Source: a virus
Virus record (IMG/VR): IMGVR_UViG_3300044701_002888
Coordinates: 1-27,850 of that record
DNA length: 27,850 nt
Strand: one strand, 5' to 3'
The position numbers were made by a program, and so were the translations under genes. Of this stretch, positions 4,989 through 25,683 are shown one piece after another. The first letter of the stretch is position 1. The number at the start of each line of letters is the position of its first letter. The notes under the pieces are model-generated. The model saw nothing but the letters and a program-made list of their open reading frames with translations, made no database searches and was not told where the DNA came from.

Positions 4989-5098
4989 CCCGCCGGTTCA
5001 CCCTCGCAGCGTTCGGTGCTGCGCTTGCCACCGTCGTCGGTGTCGTCGTCTACCTGATCGACACGTACGACACGATGACCGGAAAGGGCCGTCGATGA
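4985..5098 (+). CDS. Small single-pass membrane protein before the endolysin
   Basis: 37 residues from GTG 4985, overlapping stops on both sides (GTGA upstream, ATGA downstream). The N-terminus is basic (MTRRFT), followed by one hydrophobic helix of about 20 residues (LAAFGAALATVVGVVVYLI) and a short polar tail. It is too short for a classical holin but sits immediately before the endolysin, so a holin-like, antiholin or pinholin-like role is plausible. No family is recognised. The tight overlaps at both ends are the main evidence that it is translated. Confidence 0.6.
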   Translation: MTRRFTLAAFGAALATVVGVVVYLIDTYDTMTGKGRR

Positions 5099-5901
5099 CC
5101 GTCACCTACCGCACCGGGTACTCCACCACCCGGATGACGTTGGAGCAGCTGAAAGGCTGGTTCCGGTTCGCCGGGCTGCACCCCGAGTTCCAACGCCGGC
5201 TGATCTGTTTGATGGACCACGCCCGTGTCGCCGGTGTCGACCTCGGGATCGGTGGCGGCCTGCGCACCACCGCCGAACAGTTCGCCCTGTTCGACTCACG
5301 ACACAACCCGGTCGCCTCCGGTGGGTGCTGCTCCTATGACGGGAAACGTTGGGCGCTCGTCACCGGCGCCCACGCCGCACCACCAGGGCGTTCGTACCAT
5401 GAGCCGACGGTCCCGTTGAACGGCAAGCTGTGGGCGGTCGCGGTTGACGTGGTTGGTTGGGAGAACGGGTGGGTGAACACACCGGGACGGTTGGACCGGT
5501 TCGGGTTGCGGTCGTTCGCCGGGCTTGCCGGGAACGATGAGCCGTGGCATCTGCAACCGTGGACGAACGAGATCCCGACCGCCCGTGCGAACTTCAACCC
5601 GACGATGCACACGCTGAAGACCTTCGCCCTGCCGGCTGTCCCTGTTGCGTCGACGGCGGTCACCGTCCCCGACCCGACCATCCGTCTCGGGTCGACCGGC
5701 ACCGAGGTACGTGAGCTGCAGTCCGAGATGCGGTTCTTCGGGTGGTACACGGCAACGATCGACGGGTCATGCGGGCCTGTCACCGTCGACGCGATCAGAC
5801 GCCTGCAGGCTGCGGTGAAGGTCGGTGCCGACGGCGTGTACGGCACGGTGACCGCTGACGCGTACAGGCGGTGGAAGACGACGCTGGCGGCGCTCGCATG
5901 A
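5095..5901 (+). CDS. Endolysin: M15 (VanY-like) peptidase with C-terminal peptidoglycan-binding domain
   Basis: 268 residues. The N-terminal part (about 20-160) has the M15 zinc peptidase pattern: S100-Y-H102 for the first zinc ligand, A-V-D118 for the second, and E149-P-W-H152 for the catalytic Glu and third ligand. The family cleaves D-Ala-containing or L-Ala-D-Glu peptide bonds of peptidoglycan. Residues about 195-262 form a PG_binding_1 domain (IRLGSTGTEVRELQ, then GPVTVDAIRRLQ, then GVYGTVTADAYRRW). There is no signal peptide, so release to the wall needs a holin; two candidates lie downstream and one upstream. The ATG overlaps the previous stop. Confidence 0.88.
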   Translation: MTVTYRTGYSTTRMTLEQLKGWFRFAGLHPEFQRRLICLMDHARVAGVDLGIGGGLRTTAEQFALFDSRHNPVASGGCCSYDGKRWALVTGAHAAPPGRSYHEPTVPLNGKLWAVAVDVVGWENGWVNTPGRLDRFGLRSFAGLAGNDEPWHLQPWTNEIPTARANFNPTMHTLKTFALPAVPVASTAVTVPDPTIRLGSTGTEVRELQSEMRFFGWYTATIDGSCGPVTVDAIRRLQAAVKVGADGVYGTVTADAYRRWKTTLAALA

Positions 5902-10152: not shown

Positions 10153-10224
10153 GCCCCTCTAGCTCAATGGCAGAGCAGTGGGCTTTTAACCCATTGGTTC
10201 AGGGTTCGAGTCCCTGGGGGGGCA
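10153..10224 (+). tRNA. tRNA-Lys (anticodon UUU), probable attachment site
   Basis: A full cloverleaf can be drawn: acceptor GCCCCTC/GGGGGGC (10153-10159 with 10217-10223, one G-U), D-stem GCTC/GAGC (10162-10165 with 10173-10176), anticodon stem 10178-10182 with 10190-10194, loop CTTTTAA with anticodon TTT at 10185-10187, T-stem CAGGG/CCCTG (10200-10204 with 10212-10216) with loop TTCGAGT, and discriminator A10224. CCA is not encoded. The leftward integrase gene ends inside the T-arm, the usual sign that the phage integrates into a tRNA gene. A weak promoter-like TACCGT sits at 10138-10143. The gene is complete, not just the 3' half expected at a minimal attP. Confidence 0.93.
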
Positions 10225-11374
10225 CGCCAGACAGGACACGGCCGATCGCTTCGGCTGCCATCCGGTCACGCCCGACGTCGCTGTGTGCGTAGATGTTCAT
10301 GGTGGTCGACACCTGCGAATGGCCGAGCCGTTCACTGACCGCCATGATCGGGATGCCGGCGTTCAACAGCTGCGACGCATGCCAATGCCGCAGGTCATGC
10401 AACCGCATCTTCACCCCCACCGTGTCGCACAGGTCGGCGAACTGGTGCGACACCGTGTTCGGCCGTTGCGGTGTCCGCCCGCTCGCATCGACCCGCAGGT
10501 TCGGGAACATCCACACGCTGTCACCCCAACGGCAACCGGTGTCGCGAATCACCTGCATCAGACGCCCACGGTACGCCTCCACCACCTGAAGGGTTGCCGG
10601 GTCGAGCACCACCCGGCGGACCGTCTCGTTAGGGTTCTTCAACGAGTCCTTCACCAGCACCCCACGGCCCTTCGCCTCGTAGACGGTGCGCTGAAACGAC
10701 AGCACGTCCCCCTCGAGGTCTCCCCACCGCAAGGCCAGCACCTCCGACCTGCGGGCACCGGTGGCGGCATAGACGCGCAACAGAACCGCCAGCTCTCCCG
10801 GTGCGGCGTCGAGCAGCCTGGTGACGGCGTCGTCGGTCGGGATCGCCACCCGCTTCGTCCGCGGTGACGGGGCGGTCACCCGTTCGATCACGCTGCGCTC
10901 GATGAACCCCCACCGGTGCCCTTGGCGGATGATGGACCGCAGGATGCGGTGGTAGTGGTGCACCGTCGACTCGCTGATCAACGTCTTGTCACGCTTCCGA
11001 CGCCGCCTCAGGTGGGCGTAGAACTGTTCGATCATCGTCGGGGTCAACCGGTCGAGCCGCACCTTGCCGAGCTCCCGCTTGATCTCCGCACCCATGCCCC
11101 GTGCGCTCGCCAACGTGGTCGGCGACCCGCCCGGCGTCGACGCCTTGTGCTCCAACCATTCGTCAACCAGCCAGCCGACGGTGCGGTCCTCGGTGTCGAC
11201 GACACGACCCGACATGCGGATCTGCACCTCGATCGCCGGGGCCTTACGTTTCGCCTCGCGTTCGCCTGACGCCTCGAACGTCTTCGACACGCGCCGTTGA
11301 CGGCCGGCGCTGTCACGCCCTGCGAACACGGTGACCTGCCAGCGGTTCCCACCGACGTGCCTGATGCTTGCCAT
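10199..11374 (-). CDS. int: Tyrosine integrase
   Basis: 391 residues from ATG at 11374, chosen because GGGAGG lies just upstream; a longer frame to 11407 lacks this. N-terminal residues 1-55 form an arm-type DNA-binding domain (IRHVGGNRWQVTVF), residues about 65-170 the SAM-like core-binding domain, and 175-385 the catalytic domain with R208 (TGARRSE), H326 and R329 (HDLRH), H352 (LGHS) and the nucleophile Y362 (NIYAH). The C-terminus PPQGLEP is encoded by the tRNA T-arm and acceptor read backwards, with the stop inside the tRNA. It catalyses integration and excision at the tRNA-Lys site. It is transcribed against the structural genes. Confidence 0.95.
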   Translation of the reverse strand: MASIRHVGGNRWQVTVFAGRDSAGRQRRVSKTFEASGEREAKRKAPAIEVQIRMSGRVVDTEDRTVGWLVDEWLEHKASTPGGSPTTLASARGMGAEIKRELGKVRLDRLTPTMIEQFYAHLRRRRKRDKTLISESTVHHYHRILRSIIRQGHRWGFIERSVIERVTAPSPRTKRVAIPTDDAVTRLLDAAPGELAVLLRVYAATGARRSEVLALRWGDLEGDVLSFQRTVYEAKGRGVLVKDSLKNPNETVRRVVLDPATLQVVEAYRGRLMQVIRDTGCRWGDSVWMFPNLRVDASGRTPQRPNTVSHQFADLCDTVGVKMRLHDLRHWHASQLLNAGIPIMAVSERLGHSQVSTTMNIYAHSDVGRDRMAAEAIGRVLSGVPPQGLEP

Positions 11375-11762: not shown

Positions 11763-11939
11763 GTGACATTGCAGCACGGGGGGGGGGGGGGTTCTGACAG
11801 CCTCGACGAGGCTCAGATCACCCTCCTGGAGAACGAGCTCAGCGACGTGAAGGCGAGGCTGGCCGCTTTGCGGCAGCTCGTTGCGACGCTGCAAGCAACT
11901 CTTCCACCAGCACCGTCAACTCCGACAACTGCCGCTTGA
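11763..11939 (+). CDS. Small coiled-coil ORF containing a G14 tract, possibly phase variable
   Basis: 58 residues from GTG 11763, with GGAGGG at 11750-11755 and an ideal 7-base spacing. Residues 6-10 are five Gly encoded by the G14 run. The rest is a leucine-zipper-like helix (EAQITLLENELSDVKARL continuing with leucines at heptad spacing) and a Pro/Thr tail. It is convergent with the repressor and overlaps its 3' end by 101 bases. Losing one G would give a stop after 20 further codons; gaining one G gives a stop two codons on. It could pair with the coiled coil of the repressor, but that is inference, and the ORF could also be non-coding. Confidence 0.4.
   Translation: MTLQHGGGGGSDSLDEAQITLLENELSDVKARLAALRQLVATLQATLPPAPSTPTTAA
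11778..11791 (+). repeat. Homopolymer of 14 G
   Basis: Fourteen consecutive G inside the start of the small ORF at 11763. It is the longest homopolymer I saw in the window and a likely slippage site in vivo or during sequencing. Confidence 0.95.
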
Positions 11940-12195
11940 TGTCCGACATCTCGGTCTGAAGGACCTCGAGACGTGACTCGGGTGCCGGCTGCAGGTCGCC
12001 GTGCGACAGGCCGAGGAGCTCGGCGAGCTGCCACCGCAACCGAGGCGACAGCTGGTGCCGGCCGCGTTCGAAGTTGCTGATGTGCTGCGGGGTCACCCCG
12101 AGCTCGACCGCGACCTGGAACTGGGTCATGCCGAGGCGTTCACGCGCTGTGCGTGCGTCATCCCCGTCGAACCCGTCGACCGCTCCCGTGGCCAT
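11839..12195 (-). CDS. XRE-family repressor with C-terminal coiled coil
   Basis: 118 residues from ATG at 12195; a GTG three codons earlier is possible. Residues about 14-65 are a helix-turn-helix of the XRE/Cro-CI type (ARERLGMTQFQVAVELGVTP, then HISNFERGRHQLSP). Residues about 74-104 form a coiled coil (LEVLQTEMSDIKRQLSELTV) that probably dimerises it, followed by a basic tail. There is no LexA-type peptidase domain, so induction would not be by RecA-stimulated self-cleavage. It is divergent from the early operon and separated from it by three inverted repeats, the classic position of an immunity repressor. Confidence 0.8.
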   Translation of the reverse strand: MATGAVDGFDGDDARTARERLGMTQFQVAVELGVTPQHISNFERGRHQLSPRLRWQLAELLGLSHGDLQPAPESRLEVLQTEMSDIKRQLSELTVLVEELLAASQRAAAKRPASPSRR

Positions 12196-12201
12196 GCATC
12201 C

Positions 12202-12303
12202 CACGATAACCCCGTAAATCGTGCGATCAAGGGCGAAAGACTCAGGTTTTCGTACACCATTTGTCTATGGTGCTTGACTCTGGTCACTTGAGTCAACCAT
12301 AGT
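12202..12303. promoter_or_regulatory. Divergent immunity switch: three inverted repeats and early promoter
   Basis: Three dyads lie between the repressor and the early operon: CACGAT/ATCGTG (12202-12207 with 12218-12223), CACCAT/ATGGTG (12255-12260 with 12267-12272) and TTGACTC/GAGTCAA (12274-12280 with 12290-12296). On the plus strand TTGACT (12274-12279) and CATAGT (12298-12303), 18 bases apart, form a good promoter whose start would fall at about 12310-12311. The last dyad also supplies TTGACT on the minus strand. A repressor bound at the last dyad would cover the early promoter. Confidence 0.65.
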
Positions 12304-12310
12304 TCCCCGC

Positions 12311-12511
12311 ATGGAGGGAACCAAGACACCAGCACTGCTGTCCTCGAGGGCGGCAGCGAGGCACCTCGGCATCGGCGTCGACCGGTTCCGTCGGATCGTG
12401 CAGCAAGGCCACGGGCCGCGCTCATGGAACCCCGACGGTGGTCGCCCCATGTACGCGGTGCGGGTGCTCGACGAATGGGCAGCAGCCCGCGACGACAGCC
12501 GGGCCGCATGA
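12311..12511 (+). CDS. MerR/excisionase-like small DNA-binding protein
   Basis: 66 residues from ATG 12311. The pattern LLSSRAAARHLGIGVDRFRR followed by IVQQGHGPRSWNPDGGRPMYAV and VLDEWAAAR is that of a winged helix of the MerR/HTH_17 type used by excisionases and Cro-like regulators. It is the first gene right of the repressor. There is no purine-rich site upstream (GTTCCCCGC precedes the ATG) and the predicted transcript starts at or next to the ATG, so it is probably a leaderless mRNA. Roles as Xis, directing integrase to excision, or as early regulator are both possible. The stop overlaps the next ATG. Confidence 0.7.
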   Translation: MEGTKTPALLSSRAAARHLGIGVDRFRRIVQQGHGPRSWNPDGGRPMYAVRVLDEWAAARDDSRAA

Positions 12512-15735: not shown

Positions 15736-15884
15736 CCGTCCAGGTCGACTCCGAGATGCTCCGCAAGTCGATCGAGGACCTGCTGGCGTTGGCGTTCCGC
15801 AACAGGGAAACCATCGCATCGCTCCGCCGCCAGATCCTTGACCTCACCGTCGAGCTCGAGATGGAACGGGCACGGCGGCAGTGA
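15732..15884 (+). CDS. Very small coiled-coil protein
   Basis: 50 residues from ATG 15732, overlapping the WhiB-fusion stop and the next GTG. It is one continuous helix (SEMLRKSIEDLLALAFRNRE, then a run of RQILDLTVELEMERARRQ) with heptad hydrophobics. Possibly an oligomerising partner of a neighbour. No family recognised. Confidence 0.5.
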   Translation: MTVQVDSEMLRKSIEDLLALAFRNRETIASLRRQILDLTVELEMERARRQ

Positions 15885-16222
15885 CCGGCACCGCAAAGCG
15901 CAAAGGCGACCGTGCCGAACTCGAAGCCGCCGAACTCCTCACCGGCCTGCTCGGCACACCGGTACGCCGCAAGCTCGGCGCAGGCCGCACCGACGACACC
16001 GGCGACCTCGACGGGGTACCCGGACACGTCATCCAAGTCGCCAACTGGACCGACCTCACCCAGGCGGTCCGTATCAAACCAGTCGCCGCAGAACAGCAGC
16101 GCATCAACGCCAATCAACGGCACGCCGCAACCCTGATCCGCCTCCGAGGCGGCCAATGGCGTGTCGTCCTCACACCCGAACAGTGGTCGACCTACCTCGA
16201 CCACGGGAAGGACCCCCAATGA
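15881..16222 (+). CDS. Hjc/VRR-like PD-(D/E)XK family protein with altered active site
   Basis: 113 residues from GTG 15881. The opening K-G-D-R-A-E13-L-E followed by VRRKLGAGRTDDTGDLDGV matches phage resolvase-like endonucleases (E in helix 1, then G-D42-x-D44-G). In these families the next strand is usually E-x-K followed by N; here it reads V-I-Q52-V-A54-N-W, so the Glu and Lys are replaced. The C-terminal part (ATLIRLRGGQWRVVLTPEQW) is conserved in style. It may be a catalytically altered, DNA-binding-only form or use other residues. Context (nuclease, SSB-like, helicase) suits DNA processing. Confidence 0.6.
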   Translation: MTGTAKRKGDRAELEAAELLTGLLGTPVRRKLGAGRTDDTGDLDGVPGHVIQVANWTDLTQAVRIKPVAAEQQRINANQRHAATLIRLRGGQWRVVLTPEQWSTYLDHGKDPQ

Positions 16223-16743
16223 GACACCGACACAACCCGAACTGGATCGCCGCAGCCAGCGTCCTCACCGCCATCGCCCTCGCACCCGTCGTGTTCGCCG
16301 ACAGCCCCGAAGCAACCGCACCGGCCACCGTGCCATCGACGACGCTGCCGACCACCACCACCGCTCACGTCGCGACCACCACCACCCAGGTCGTGACAAC
16401 CACCAGCACCACCACCACGACCACCACCATCCCGGCGGGCGACTGGTCGTGCCCCGACTGGCTCACCCTCGCCATCGAAGTCGGGTTCGCCGTCGACGAG
16501 CTCCCGATCGTCGACCGGCTCATCTTCCGCGAATCCAGATGCCAGCCCGACGCCTACAACGGTGACGACCCCAACGGCGGCAGCCGAGGCCTGATGCAGA
16601 TCAACGGCATCTGGTGCGAGTGGTACCTCCAGTCCCTCGACATCGTCGACACCTGCGACCAGCTGTACGACCCCGCCACCAACCTGCGCGCAGCGTTGGC
16701 GATCCGCAACCGTCAAGGCGGCTACGGGGCGTGGGGCCTGTGA
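16219..16743 (+). CDS. Secreted lysozyme-like / lytic transglycosylase protein
   Basis: 174 residues from ATG 16219, overlapping the previous stop. Residues 1-27 are a clear signal peptide (RHRHNPNW, then AAASVLTAIALAPVVFA). A Thr/Pro-rich linker covers about 32-72. The C-terminal domain (75-174) has the SLT/lysozyme-like pattern with F-R-E105-S-R-C (catalytic Glu) and GSRGLMQIN, plus several Cys that could form disulfides outside the cell. It would be exported and cut peptidoglycan glycan strands. Its place in the early operon, not the lysis cassette, suggests a role during lysogeny or early infection, such as wall remodelling or superinfection control. Confidence 0.75.
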   Translation: MRHRHNPNWIAAASVLTAIALAPVVFADSPEATAPATVPSTTLPTTTTAHVATTTTQVVTTTSTTTTTTTIPAGDWSCPDWLTLAIEVGFAVDELPIVDRLIFRESRCQPDAYNGDDPNGGSRGLMQINGIWCEWYLQSLDIVDTCDQLYDPATNLRAALAIRNRQGGYGAWGL

Positions 16744-18551: not shown

Positions 18552-19126
18552 GTATCGAACTTGGCGGAACAGCCGACTGGCGCGACAACCCCACGTTCGA
18601 CCGAGTCGAAGACGTTGCCGGGACATTCGCGACAGAAGAAGAAGCTGCCAACTGCTTCGATTCAATCATCGAGGCGTCAGGTCTGTTCGATGTCGAACAC
18701 GAAGTGTCATCTTCTAGCGGGCGCTTTCGCATTGACCGTCTGGTCTACCCAAACGATGTCGCCCGCCAATTCGGCTGGACAATCGGTGCTGTCGGCGTAG
18801 AACTCAAGCGCGGTGGAATCAAGATTGGTCCCGCGCTATGCCAAGCACTCGACTATCGAGACGCTGACTTTCATTCAGCCACCAACGGTCTCATCCGCCC
18901 ATCGTTTGTCTTCGTATTCCCGTACATGGCAGATGCGAGTGGCGCATTCCAATCGGTACTCCTACACAAGCGCATCGGCGGTGCATTGCCAGTGCGAAAC
19001 GGGATTCGCTTCCGGTGCGGAAGCAGAACAGTTGCGTACGTCGATGCCGGCGGTTGGTTGGAGTTCGGCAACGTCAACTTCGGCCTCAAACAGGGCAGCA
19101 GATCATCACGGAGGTGGGACGAGTGA
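18548..19126 (+). CDS. PD-(D/E)XK nuclease-like protein, lower-GC insert
   Basis: 192 residues from ATG 18548. The order of E50 (DVEHEV), R-I-D63, then V-G-V-E85-L-K87 and Q99-A-L-D-Y fits the restriction-endonuclease-like core (E, D, ExK, Q). It therefore probably cleaves or nicks DNA. Base composition drops visibly compared with the very GC-rich genes either side, with codons such as att, aaa, tct and ttt, suggesting recent arrival as cargo. Neither a methylase nor a specificity domain is near, so a restriction-modification pair is not supported. It could be a self-contained defence nuclease, a Vsr-like enzyme or a replication nuclease. Confidence 0.6.
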   Translation: MSIELGGTADWRDNPTFDRVEDVAGTFATEEEAANCFDSIIEASGLFDVEHEVSSSSGRFRIDRLVYPNDVARQFGWTIGAVGVELKRGGIKIGPALCQALDYRDADFHSATNGLIRPSFVFVFPYMADASGAFQSVLLHKRIGGALPVRNGIRFRCGSRTVAYVDAGGWLEFGNVNFGLKQGSRSSRRWDE

Positions 19127-21399
19127 CCGCCGACCCTGCACCGGAGCTCCTCGACTGGGCGCTCACCTACAGCCGACGCGGAATGGAACTGTTCCCCGTC
19201 AACCCCAACACCAAAGCCCCCCTCACCGAGAACGGCTTCAAAGACGCCACCAGCGACCCCGACCGCATCCGCGACTGGTGGCACCAGCACCCACGCGCCC
19301 TCATCGGCTGCCGGGTACCCGAACACACCGTCATCCTCGACATCGACCCACGCCACCACGGGCACACCACCTGGGCCGCCCTCGAGAAAGAAATCGGGGC
19401 CATCCACACCGGACGCGAACACCGATCCGGGCGCGGCGACGGCGGCCGCCACCTCTGGTTCAACCACCCCGGACAACAACTCAACACCAAAGCCCTCAAC
19501 GAATGGGCACGCGACCACGGCGTCGGCGAACCAGTCGGCAACACCCGATGGACATGCGGCATCGACATCCTCCACCACGACCTCCGCTACACCATCCTCC
19601 CACCCTCACCACACCCCGAAACAGGAAGCCCCTACCACTGGCACCAAGGCGGCGAACCCGCCACCATGCCACGCCCCCTCATCGACCTCCTCTCCCAACA
19701 AACCACCCACGCACCACGCCCCATCCCCGGCGTCCGCATCGCCGACGGCGACGGCCCCGCCGACTGGTACTCCGCCAACCACTCCTGGCACGACATCCTC
19801 ACCCCCGCAGGCTGGGTCCTCGTCCAAGGCGACGGCGACAGCGACGGCTCCAAATGGCGGCACCCCAACGCCTCCGCCCAATCATCCGCCAGCGTCCGCC
19901 ACGGCACCCTGTTCGTCTACAGCCCCAACACCGACTTCGACACCACCGAACCCGGCAGCCCATCCGGCTACACCCGGTTCCACGCCTACGCAGTCCTCGA
20001 ACACCGCGGCGACATGAAAGCAGCCGCCAGCACCGTCCGACGCGCCATGCAACCCGCCGCACCAGCAACTGTGCGCACCCCACCCACCAACATCAACCCC
20101 GACACCGGCGAAATCCTCGTCCCCGGACACCTCGACGACACCTTCTGGGAAGCACGCCCCGCACTCACCCACATCCGACAAGCAGCCCGCTCACGGCTCG
20201 TCGCACCAGCAGCCGTCCTCGGCTGCGTCCTCGCCCACGTCGCCGCCTTCACACCACCCTCCACCTGCCTCCCACCCACCGTCGGCTCCCACGCCCCACT
20301 GTCCACCTACATCGCCCTCAGAGGCCGCTCAGGGGCCGGCAAATCATCCCCAGCAGCCTGCGCCCGAGACCTCCTCCCACACACCCCACCAGGACGCATC
20401 GGACCCATCGCCCTCGGCTCCGGCGAAGGCCTCGTCGAAGCATTCATGGACCTCACCGAAGAACGCGACGACAACGGCAAGACACGCAAAGTGAAACGCC
20501 AAACCCGCCAAGGCGCCCTGTTCAGCCTCGACGAAGGACAAGCCCTCGCCGAGCTCGCAGCCCGCAAAGGGTCCACCATCATGTCCGTCCTCCGCACCGC
20601 ATGGTCCGGCGGCGACCCCGGGCAAGCCAACGCATCCATCGAAACACGACGCAGCCTCAAACCCGGCAGCTACCACGTCGGACTCATCAGCCTGTGGCAA
20701 GACCGCGCCGCCGGCCAGCTCCTCGCCGACGTCGACGGCGGCACCCCACAACGCTTCGTGTGGCTCACCACCGACGACACCGACGCCACCGACAACACCC
20801 CCGAATGGCCCGGGACGCTCAACTGGGAACCAGCCAACGGCATCCTCCTCGGCGGCGACTGGGGACGCCACGAAATGGGCGTCGACCCCGCCATCACCAC
20901 CGAAGTCAAAGCCGCACGCATCGCCGAACTACGCGGCGAAACCACCCCCGACCCGCTCGACAGCCACCGCCGGCTCGTCAAGCTCAAAGTCGCCGGGCTC
21001 CTCGCCCTGCTCGACATGCGCCACAACATCACCCTCGACGACTGGGAACTCGCCGAACGCATCATGGGCTCCTCCGACGACACACGCCGGTGGATCATCG
21101 CCGAGAACGCACGCGCCGCCGCCCACACCGACACCGCAGCAGCCGAACGAACCGCCCAACGCGACTCCATCGTCGAAGACGCAGCCCGGGCCCGATCGCT
21201 CGACAACGCCATCCGAGCCGTCATCAAAGTCGCCCGCAAACACGCACCCGGAACGTTCACTCGGCGTGAGGTTTCGCGGGCCATCGCATCGCGTGACCGG
21301 GAACGAATCACCGTCGACGAAGCCCTCGAGCACGCCGAAACCAGGGGACAGATCCGCAAAGTCGACGCCAACGAATGGGCCCTCAAGGACCCCAAATGA
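19123..21399 (+). CDS. Primase-polymerase / helicase fusion
   Basis: 758 residues from GTG 19123, with GGAGG at 19110-19114. Residues about 8-190 are a bifunctional prim-pol domain of the archaeo-eukaryotic type: the GMELFPVNPNTKAPL opening, catalytic D73-I-D75, and later GGRHLWF. The second half holds a P-loop ATPase with Walker A G401-RSGAGK407-SS and Walker B LFSLD470-E471, typical of phage/plasmid primase-helicases. The last 90 residues resemble a winged helix (TRREVSRAIASRDRERITVD). It would unwind DNA and make primers, the core of phage replication. The repeat arrays directly after its stop make a likely origin. Confidence 0.87.
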   Translation: MTADPAPELLDWALTYSRRGMELFPVNPNTKAPLTENGFKDATSDPDRIRDWWHQHPRALIGCRVPEHTVILDIDPRHHGHTTWAALEKEIGAIHTGREHRSGRGDGGRHLWFNHPGQQLNTKALNEWARDHGVGEPVGNTRWTCGIDILHHDLRYTILPPSPHPETGSPYHWHQGGEPATMPRPLIDLLSQQTTHAPRPIPGVRIADGDGPADWYSANHSWHDILTPAGWVLVQGDGDSDGSKWRHPNASAQSSASVRHGTLFVYSPNTDFDTTEPGSPSGYTRFHAYAVLEHRGDMKAAASTVRRAMQPAAPATVRTPPTNINPDTGEILVPGHLDDTFWEARPALTHIRQAARSRLVAPAAVLGCVLAHVAAFTPPSTCLPPTVGSHAPLSTYIALRGRSGAGKSSPAACARDLLPHTPPGRIGPIALGSGEGLVEAFMDLTEERDDNGKTRKVKRQTRQGALFSLDEGQALAELAARKGSTIMSVLRTAWSGGDPGQANASIETRRSLKPGSYHVGLISLWQDRAAGQLLADVDGGTPQRFVWLTTDDTDATDNTPEWPGTLNWEPANGILLGGDWGRHEMGVDPAITTEVKAARIAELRGETTPDPLDSHRRLVKLKVAGLLALLDMRHNITLDDWELAERIMGSSDDTRRWIIAENARAAAHTDTAAAERTAQRDSIVEDAARARSLDNAIRAVIKVARKHAPGTFTRREVSRAIASRDRERITVDEALEHAETRGQIRKVDANEWALKDPK

Positions 21400-21400
21400 G

Positions 21401-21620
21401 GGTGTCGGACGGTGTCGGACGCGTCGGACGGTGTCGGACGCTGTCGGACGGAAAGCGTCCGACACTTTCTCACACAGAGTGTTCAGCACTCACAGAATCT
21501 CACAGAGAGTATAAAAAATGAGCATTTAATAACTTCGCGTGCGAGGTCCGACAACAGAAAGCGCCACAGCGTCCGACAAGCGTCCGACACCGTCCGACGC
21601 GTCCGACACCGTCCGACACC
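21401..21620. other. Candidate replication origin: two inverted iteron arrays flanking an AT-rich core
   Basis: Left array: GTCGGAC at 21404, 21414, 21423, 21433 and 21443. Right array: the complement GTCCGAC at 21571, 21582, 21592, 21601 and 21611. Extra inverted copies lie at 21457 and 21546. Bases 21401-21450 are the reverse complement of 21570-21620 with a single extra A at 21580 or beside it, so the arrays form a 50-bp near-perfect inverted repeat. The roughly 120 bases between are AT-rich, with agtataaaaaatg at about 21508 and catttaataact from 21523. Ten-base phasing puts protein sites on one DNA face. This is the usual make-up of an iteron origin, next to the primase-helicase. Confidence 0.72.
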
Positions 21621-21644
21621 CCAACCAACCAAGACAGAGGAACG

Positions 21645-22118
21645 ATGCGCAAACTCACCGACACCATCACCCGGCTCGACGCCAACGTCCGCCACATCAC
21701 CCGACACGCCACCACAGCCGACCGGCAAATCCGAACATCACTCTCCGTAGCCGACGGCTACCCCACAGCCACCAGCCTCGGCCGCACCAGCGGCGGCGGC
21801 AGCGAACTCACCTCCGTCGAAGCAGCCGCCGACAAACGACTCGCCCTCGGCGACGCACGCACCGAACACCTCCGCCAGCTCCTCGAGCAAGCCGAACAAC
21901 TCACCTACAACATCGTCAACCTCGTCAACAGCTGGCTCCCCACCCCCGAACGATCCACCAACGACCGGTGCTCCGGCGGCGGATCACTCCCAGGCGCACT
22001 CGACTGGGGTCGCCCGGACTGCACCAACATCGGCACCTCAAGACGTGCCGGCCTGTGCGACGCCTGCTACATGCGCTGGAAGCGGTGGGAACGCGACGAC
22101 GGGCCGAGCGCCGCGTGA
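21645..22118 (+). CDS. Hypothetical protein with C-terminal Cys cluster
   Basis: 157 residues from ATG 21645, with AGAGGAAC upstream. The N-terminal two thirds are helical (VEAAADKRLALGDARTEHLR, then LLEQAEQLTYNIVNLV). The C-terminal third has C104, C121 and then L-C-D-A-C-Y-M-R-W, likely a zinc finger. Similar proteins appear in actinophage early regions; I cannot name the family. Being the first gene after the iteron arrays, it could be an origin-binding or replication accessory protein, and this is only position-based. Confidence 0.6.
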   Translation: MRKLTDTITRLDANVRHITRHATTADRQIRTSLSVADGYPTATSLGRTSGGGSELTSVEAAADKRLALGDARTEHLRQLLEQAEQLTYNIVNLVNSWLPTPERSTNDRCSGGGSLPGALDWGRPDCTNIGTSRRAGLCDACYMRWKRWERDDGPSAA

Positions 22119-22469: not shown

Positions 22470-22620
22470 CGGTCACGGTTTCATGCAGTCGATTCTGCAT
22501 GATCATGCACCGAGTTTTTCACTCTCCGTGACATCACGGAAGACCCAGCGAACTTCTCTCTCCCTCCCCAGCACGGAGGGGGCTGGAAAGCCCTGTGCCG
22601 CAAGGGTTTGCGAGCGGCAC
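22466..22620. other. Palindrome-rich interval, candidate cos/pac site
   Basis: The 243 bases between HNH and terS have no gene. They hold GTGAC/GTCAC (22466-22470 with 22472-22476), CATGCAG/CTGCATG (22482-22488 with 22495-22501), CCGTGA/TCACGG (22526-22531 with 22534-22539), GGGCT/AGCCC with a GGAA loop (22580-22593), and GTGCCGC/GCGGCAC (22595-22601 with 22614-22620). TGCATG recurs near 22688-22702. Dyads between HNH and terminase genes are where cohesive-end phages have their cos site. Confidence 0.45.
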
Positions 22621-24505: not shown

Positions 24506-25683
24506 GCCTGCTGCGTAACGCCCGCCAGGCGGCGTCGTTCGAGTCGCTCGAGGAGCGGATCGAGCAGGCTGTGGAGCAGCGTGTAGTCCGCGACCCGGGC
24601 TGGACGGCGTGGGCGAACTCGAACGGTGGCGTGCCCGGTTCGTCAGCGGTTGACGGTGACCGTGCGATGCAGCTCCTCGCCGTGTACGGGTGCGTGCAGT
24701 TGATCACCGATTCGATTGCGACGTTGCCGATCGACGTGTACCGGCAGAACCCGGACGGGTCGAAGGTGGAGTTGCCGTTGCCGCGGTGGATGGCGTGGGA
24801 GTCGTCGCCCGGTGTGGACCGTGTCGACTTCCTGTCGCGGGTGCTGGTGTCGTTGCTGTTGGACGGCAACGCCTACCTGGTGCCGGGCAGGAACGCGAAC
24901 GGTGTCGTCGTCGAGGTGTACGTGCTGGACCCGGCGGTGGTGGAGGTGCGGCGTCACAGCGACGGCCGTGTCGCCTACATCGTCGACGGCCGTGAGGTCG
25001 TCGGGCTGGATGTGTTGCACGTGCGTGGCATGTGCGCCCCCGGCGAGCTGAAGGGCGTGAACCCGATCGAGGCGGCACGCCAGATGCTGGCGATGGGGTT
25101 GGCGGCGAACGCGTCGGCGGAGAAGTTCTTCACCCAGGGGGCGGTGATCCCCGGTGTGATCGAGGCGCCCGGGTCGATGACCCGTGAGCAGATGCGCGAC
25201 ATGCGTGACAACTGGGTGGTGTCGCACGGCGGTGTGAAGCGCTCGCACCTGCCGGGCATCCTGACCAACGGGGCGACATGGCGGTCGGTGTCGATCACCG
25301 CCGAGCAGGCCCAGTTCCTGCAGACCCGCCGCTACACGGACGCGCAGATCGCCGGCCAGTTGTTCCGTGTCGACCCGACATTGCTCGGCATCCCGGTCGA
25401 GGGCACCTCACTCACTTACAACAACGTGGAATCCCGTGGGATTCACCTTGCGCGTCACACGCTGATGCCTTGGGTCGTCAGGGTCGAGCGTGCCCTCGGC
25501 CGGCTGCTACCAGCGAACCAGTACGCACGGTTCAACATGGACGGCCTGATGCGTGCCGACCTGTCGACCCGCTACGCCAGCTACAAGACCGGCCTCGAGG
25601 CGGGGTTCCTCACGGTCGACGAGGTTCGCCGCCTGGAGGACCTTGAGCTGTTGCCTGACATCCCGGCGGCGACCGATGCGTGA
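24502..25683 (+). CDS. Portal protein (HK97 family)
   Basis: 393 residues from GTG 24502. Diagnostic HK97-portal patterns are AVYGCVQLITDSIATLPIDV, LLDGNAYLVPGRNA, VLHVRGMCAPGELKGVNPIE and TSLTYNNVESR followed by PWVVRVERALGRLL. Twelve copies form the ring at one head vertex through which DNA enters and to which the tail joins. Its length is normal for the family. It overlaps the HAD-protease gene by eight bases. Confidence 0.92.
   Translation: MSLLRNARQAASFESLEERIEQAVEQRVVRDPGWTAWANSNGGVPGSSAVDGDRAMQLLAVYGCVQLITDSIATLPIDVYRQNPDGSKVELPLPRWMAWESSPGVDRVDFLSRVLVSLLLDGNAYLVPGRNANGVVVEVYVLDPAVVEVRRHSDGRVAYIVDGREVVGLDVLHVRGMCAPGELKGVNPIEAARQMLAMGLAANASAEKFFTQGAVIPGVIEAPGSMTREQMRDMRDNWVVSHGGVKRSHLPGILTNGATWRSVSITAEQAQFLQTRRYTDAQIAGQLFRVDPTLLGIPVEGTSLTYNNVESRGIHLARHTLMPWVVRVERALGRLLPANQYARFNMDGLMRADLSTRYASYKTGLEAGFLTVDEVRRLEDLELLPDIPAATDA

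Follow-up and report, generated by a model that had tools for sequence, protein, structure and literature searches.

Does the block of mirrored short repeats that directly follows a primase-helicase gene in this virus mark the place where its genome begins to be copied, and, if so, which protein reads the repeats? The window considered here is the whole of an IMG/VR virus record, 27,850 bases in length. From comparison of the array with those of its relatives, copying of the phage genome very probably begins here, and the helicase protein itself is the likely reader.

The array lies between the stop codon of the primase-helicase gene (at 21399) and an open reading frame (ORF) that begins at 21645; its first iteron is 5 bp past the stop, so that, as in SaPI/PICI-type systems, iterons occur directly downstream of the gene for the initiator helicase. 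The left arm (21400–21450, plus strand) contains five GTCGGAC iterons at steps of 9–10 bp, with starts at 21404, 21414, 21423, 21433, and 21443 (the last copy ends at 21449). The right arm (21570–21621, minus strand) repeats the left arm as its reverse complement apart from one inserted A, and contains five GTCCGAC iterons with starts at 21571, 21582, 21592, 21601, and 21611 (the last ends at 21617). The arms are 100% complementary over 43 nt (21400–21442 with 21579–21621), and complementarity reaches 51 nt once the inserted A is allowed, against the 50 bases of the original prediction. Two extra inverted GTCCGAC copies are present between the arms, one belonging to the left cluster (21457–21463, minus strand) and one isolated at the right edge of the core (21546–21552, minus strand). 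The AT-rich core (21464–21545), presumably the DNA-unwinding region, has a GC content of 40%, where the record as a whole has 65%, and no 30-mer in the record is poorer in GC than the one that starts within this core, at 21506. The GTCGGAC word has 12 copies within 214 bp, whereas the remaining 27.6 kb has nine, which are scattered; no second region of the record reaches 12 copies, and in 2000 first-order Markov shuffles of the array region no 7-mer exceeded six. All of the repeats, the inverted arms, the AT-rich core in a GC-rich genome, and the position directly behind the primase-helicase gene are thus as originally described.

The gene preceding the array (19123–21399, plus strand, GTG start) encodes the proposed initiator, a protein of 758 amino acids. 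It contains a Pfam Prim-Pol domain (E 2e-32), and DUF3987 is matched by 43 of the 52 members of the family of its helicase half. In an AlphaFold model based on 52 sequences (mean pLDDT 89.8), the C-terminal end consists of a long helix followed by a winged helix, with predicted helices at residues 714–720, 723–726, and 731–740, and strands at 744–748 and 751–754. The C-terminal winged helix (residues 712–758, with S723–E727 at the recognition helix) is encoded by 21256–21396 on the plus strand, an assignment based on the model, on a weak profile match, and on the covariation described below. The top Foldseek matches for the model in the PDB are MCM helicases, and the pRN1 prim-pol (1rni) is also found; whole-chain TM-scores are low because several domains are compared together, and “MCM-like” is therefore a fold-level statement. 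The C-terminus has weak sequence-profile matches to the C-termini of RPA32 and MCM4, both of which are winged helices. By predicted fold, the 758-residue protein is a prim-pol combined with an MCM-like AAA+ helicase (DUF3987 family) and a winged helix. AlphaFold and Foldseek thereby predict the AAA+ helicase with C-terminal DNA-binding domain that characterizes SaPI/PICI-type initiators, and the protein has the prim-pol, helicase, and winged helix of the pRN1 type.

Direct protein searches of viral contigs with the record’s own proteins found no relatives, and a distant prim-pol profile, built from annotated distant relatives, was needed to reach them. A first profile yielded 80 virus loci; a second yielded 80 genome loci, the record titles of which are all actinobacterial (Actinomycetota), together with 79 virus loci, some of which were already in the first set. 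After removal of proteins more than 80% identical, 142 loci with downstream sequence were retained. An array was called under a strict rule (a 7-mer with at least four copies in two clusters, at least two per side, directly after the stop codon), and this rule was passed by 83 of the 142 non-redundant relatives compared with 2 of 710 shuffled versions. Among these 83 arrays, the first copy begins a median of 13 nt after the prim-pol stop, same-strand steps are mostly 8–10 bp, the two clusters lie a median of 113 bp apart, and core GC is below arm GC in 72. In 76 of them the outermost copies face opposite ways and in seven they run in parallel, and the most frequent layout is >><|><<. Mirrored copies had been predicted to set this locus apart from ordinary iterons; they are uncommon among classical plasmid iterons but are the norm in this phage family. 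The array of the record, with an arm-symmetry score of 48 (the top of a first set of 63 clusters; best control window, 11), is an enlarged example of the common family layout: the inverted copy at 21457 matches the “<” of the left cluster, and the right cluster is without the inner forward copy of the consensus.

The remaining 59 of the 142 relatives fail the strict rule; among those read, L065, L077, L140, and L187 have weak arrays and others run straight into the next gene. The array is absent from Corndog-type phages (L034/L088) and from the Arthrobacter/Microbacterium prim-pol phages L038 and L039, which are related in the primase domain only. A search for the same unit downstream of prim-pol genes in related phages had been suggested: the array layout does recur there, but the words mostly differ, GTCGGAC itself being present in L050. 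GTCGGAC was also considered as a word common to unrelated phages, and this was rejected because a scan of viral contigs gave 22 stretches, most of them repeats within reading frames or further repeats for which no adjacent prim-pol gene was seen. Separately, GTCCGAC repeats with a 9-bp period occur in environmental virus contigs (L010, L011, L015, L019, L022, and L025), mostly in reading frames that code SDPSDP-like stretches, and none was seen beside a prim-pol gene. A shared core motif (an AT tract followed by a CGCGTGCGAG-like piece, or CAGGTCAG) was a by-eye impression that holds in few loci, and is not claimed.

The iterons could instead be operators, that is, sites at which the prim-pol protein itself or another phage protein regulates the downstream genes, with no role in replication. 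The array does precede a same-strand ORF at 21645, and plasmid initiators often autoregulate at iterons. However, the genes downstream differ among relatives, whereas the array keeps its place at the prim-pol 3' end, and a symmetric layout about an AT-rich core is typical of origins. A sigma-70 scan, which is a weak test, detected no promoter-like site, and a terminator scan was empty. We regard a purely regulatory array as very improbable.

Within the family, iteron words vary between loci around the theme GGTGGACA, with versions that include TTGGACA, TCGGAC, GTGTACA, and GGGGTAC, and this variation can be set against that of the protein. In a pairwise test, how far the iterons of two loci differ was related to how far their proteins differ in each 8-residue stretch, with whole-helicase distance regressed out. 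The best stretches correspond to residues 718–730 (partial r 0.35), compared with a mean of 0.00 (sd 0.06, maximum 0.22) for the 320 stretches before residue 690, and a maximum of 0.19 for label permutations; shared ancestry could partly inflate these values, despite the regressed-out helicase distance and the rest-of-protein background. A smaller peak occurs near residues 690–695. When 405 alignment columns were scanned against nine iteron positions, R726, at the beginning of the recognition helix within an SRDRE stretch, ranked first (z 9.4; next 5.1), and K726 is paired with G at iteron position 3 in eight of nine loci. Residue 723 (Y/H/A) occurs with T at iteron position 5 in 8/8 loci vs. 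6/62 (p 3e-7), an association that is post hoc, having first been spotted by eye. Although the L050 protein is just 27% identical to the 758-residue protein, its locus shares the GTCGGAC word and its IASRD stretch is similar. In two further sets of loci, copy positions in the downstream region are alike despite different words (GGTGTCA in L097, L098, and L112; CCTCCAC/CGCCTCC in L099, L103, L104, L106–L108, and L117), which provides a natural comparison for a specificity switch.

Because word differences track residues 718–730 better than any stretch of the helicase, the prim-pol protein is indicated as the reader of the repeats. The original prediction had named two possible binders, this winged helix and the Cys-cluster protein encoded at 21645. 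The former is strongly supported by comparative evidence, namely the layout after the stop codon in 83 of 142 relatives together with the covariation between iterons and recognition region, so that a C-terminal domain as iteron reader, as in SaPI/PICI-type systems, is here suggested by statistical covariation at 718–730 and R726 across the sequences compared. An origin or partition-type site bound by another protein, for which the adjoining 157-residue ORF with its Cys-containing C-terminus would be a candidate, has little to commend it and is the least probable of the readings: no relatives of that protein were found, widespread as the arrays are, the annotated genes that occupy this position in array-bearing relatives are different ones, and the covariation points to the winged helix of the prim-pol protein.

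The symmetry of the arms raises the question of whether DNA structure, rather than sequence, is recognized. In the archetype, the prim-pol plasmid pRN1, replication depends on a 100-nt stem-loop immediately behind the gene; the authors state that there are no iterons, and suggest that similar phage proteins also recognize stem-loops (PMC4234260). By analogy, the mirrored arms would extrude a large cruciform (stem of ~43–51 bp) that is recognized by the prim-pol protein or on which it assembles, with the repeats being secondary; such a reading overlaps with the favored one in that both make the array an origin. The window strand has stem-loop potential, folding with a z-score of about −14 (−14.3). 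Furthermore, arms of the same locus, spacers included, match each other better than they match arms with the same iteron at other loci (mean score 22.0 vs. 15.1), and an arm’s own partner is its best match in 27 of 47 cases. Under this same-iteron control, spacer columns are identical in 84% vs. 78%, and matched spacer columns per comparison number 3.55 vs. 1.86; an earlier arm-symmetry control (87% identical spacer columns) was set aside as biased by local alignment, the excess being smaller against same-iteron arms. The greater likeness of own-locus arms implies that whole-arm symmetry is kept by selection or homogenization; arm matching can also arise by template switching or gene conversion. 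Several relatives (L048, L056, and L062) have iteron clusters but little complementarity between the arms, and a signal of structure only would not need iteron words to covary with DNA-reading residues. A structural role of the arms is possible, yet the covariation argues that sequence reading is central, and we consider recognition of the stem-loop in its own right unlikely, if less so than an operator array.

The preferred reading, an iteron origin served by its own helicase, has close counterparts. SaPI Rep and SCCmec Cch2 each use the C-terminal domain to bind iterons that immediately follow the gene encoding the protein (PMC7581432), and E. coli PICIs always have two iteron sets that flank an AT-rich region, with rep-ori plasmids that replicate (PMC6092414). 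The arrangement here is similar, with the proposed origin directly downstream of a self-loading helicase gene and the helicase C-terminal domain as reader (PMC7581432; PMC6092414), the reader here being predicted. SaPI/PICI rep-ori modules are carried on satellites, whereas the present arrays are on phages and prophages (genome matches all Actinomycetota), the helicase, a member of the DUF3987 family, is joined to a prim-pol, and, within the family examined here, the arrays are mirror images (>><|><<). A PICI is a satellite without the full structural gene set; this record carries terminase, portal, head protease, and tail genes, and thus the locus works like a PICI origin but is not part of a PICI. 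SCCmec Cch2 also has iterons downstream of the helicase gene, bound by the C-terminal domain (PMC7581432), but these are three 5-nt direct repeats, and the primase is separate; here there are two opposed arrays. The pRN1 protein (ORF904) has the same combination of prim-pol, helicase, and winged helix, and its gene is closely followed by an inverted-repeat origin that is essential (PMC4234260), but pRN1 is reported to lack iterons and its helicase is of the SF3 type, whereas here 12 clear iteron copies accompany an MCM-like helicase. No Rep_3/RepA-type initiator was detected among the ORFs scanned against Pfam and PHROGs, which were a subset of those in the record. In classical iteron plasmids of this type, winged-helix initiators bind tandem repeats next to an AT-rich region; by comparison, the units here are short (7–9 bp conserved) and opposed, and the initiator carries its own helicase and primase.

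Taken together, we propose, with a probability of about 0.86, that the array region serves as the replication origin of the phage and operates as follows. The winged helix of the 758-residue protein would bind the GTCGGAC iterons, and the two arrays, which face each other across the AT-rich core, would nucleate two opposed helicase rings. The core would then melt, the fused prim-pol would prime synthesis on the exposed strands, and forks would leave, probably in both directions. The dyad-symmetric form of the array would suit the loading of two opposed hexamers, and bidirectional firing fits its symmetry. GC skew, which had been suggested as a check on the origin, gives no consistent support: the cumulative minimum of the record is at 22574, ~1 kb to the right of the array, and relatives have no consistent turn at their arrays. 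More tentatively, the DUF3987-family prim-pol proteins may be self-contained MCM-like initiators for which dyad iteron clusters load two opposed hexamers (cf. the MCM double hexamer), with specificity conferred by a short, readable winged-helix code, and with arms that also extrude a cruciform to start melting; if true, the SaPI and pRN1 modes would be combined in a single origin.

To our knowledge, few actinobacterial phages have a known replication origin. A literature search, in which coverage of subscription papers was thin, found no description of this origin family, and no iterons were reported in the regions studied of extrachromosomal mycobacterial prophages (PMC7157519). Relative to SaPI/PICI origins, the apparent novelty is the occurrence on full phages, the fused prim-pol/MCM-like initiator, and the mirror symmetry. 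The array pattern allows origins to be pointed to in many phages and prophages from sequence alone, and a function can be proposed for a family still named DUF3987. The correspondence between residues 718–730 and iteron bases would be a first recognition code, open to testing with small domains and short DNA, and, given the strict mirror symmetry, it can be tested directly whether a single-protein initiator loads a double hexamer.

Elsewhere in the record, a divergent arrangement at 11839–12510 (a minus-strand, repressor-like ORF at 11839–12204 and a short plus-strand ORF from ~12312) resembles a temperate-phage switch, which suggests a candidate temperate phage. Beside the repressor-like gene there is a run of ~13 G (11778–11792) that may represent either a phase-variable tract or a feature of the assembly. 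The N-terminal half of the ORF at 25553–26704 matches polynucleotide kinase families and the C-terminal half matches head maturation protease, which may reflect a fusion or an effect of the reading frame. An SLT lysozyme-like protein with a Thr-rich linker encoded by ACC repeats (15838–16743) is present in addition to an endolysin-like ORF (5095–5901), and a tRNA-Lys (TTT) gene, possibly phage-borne, is located at 10153–10225.
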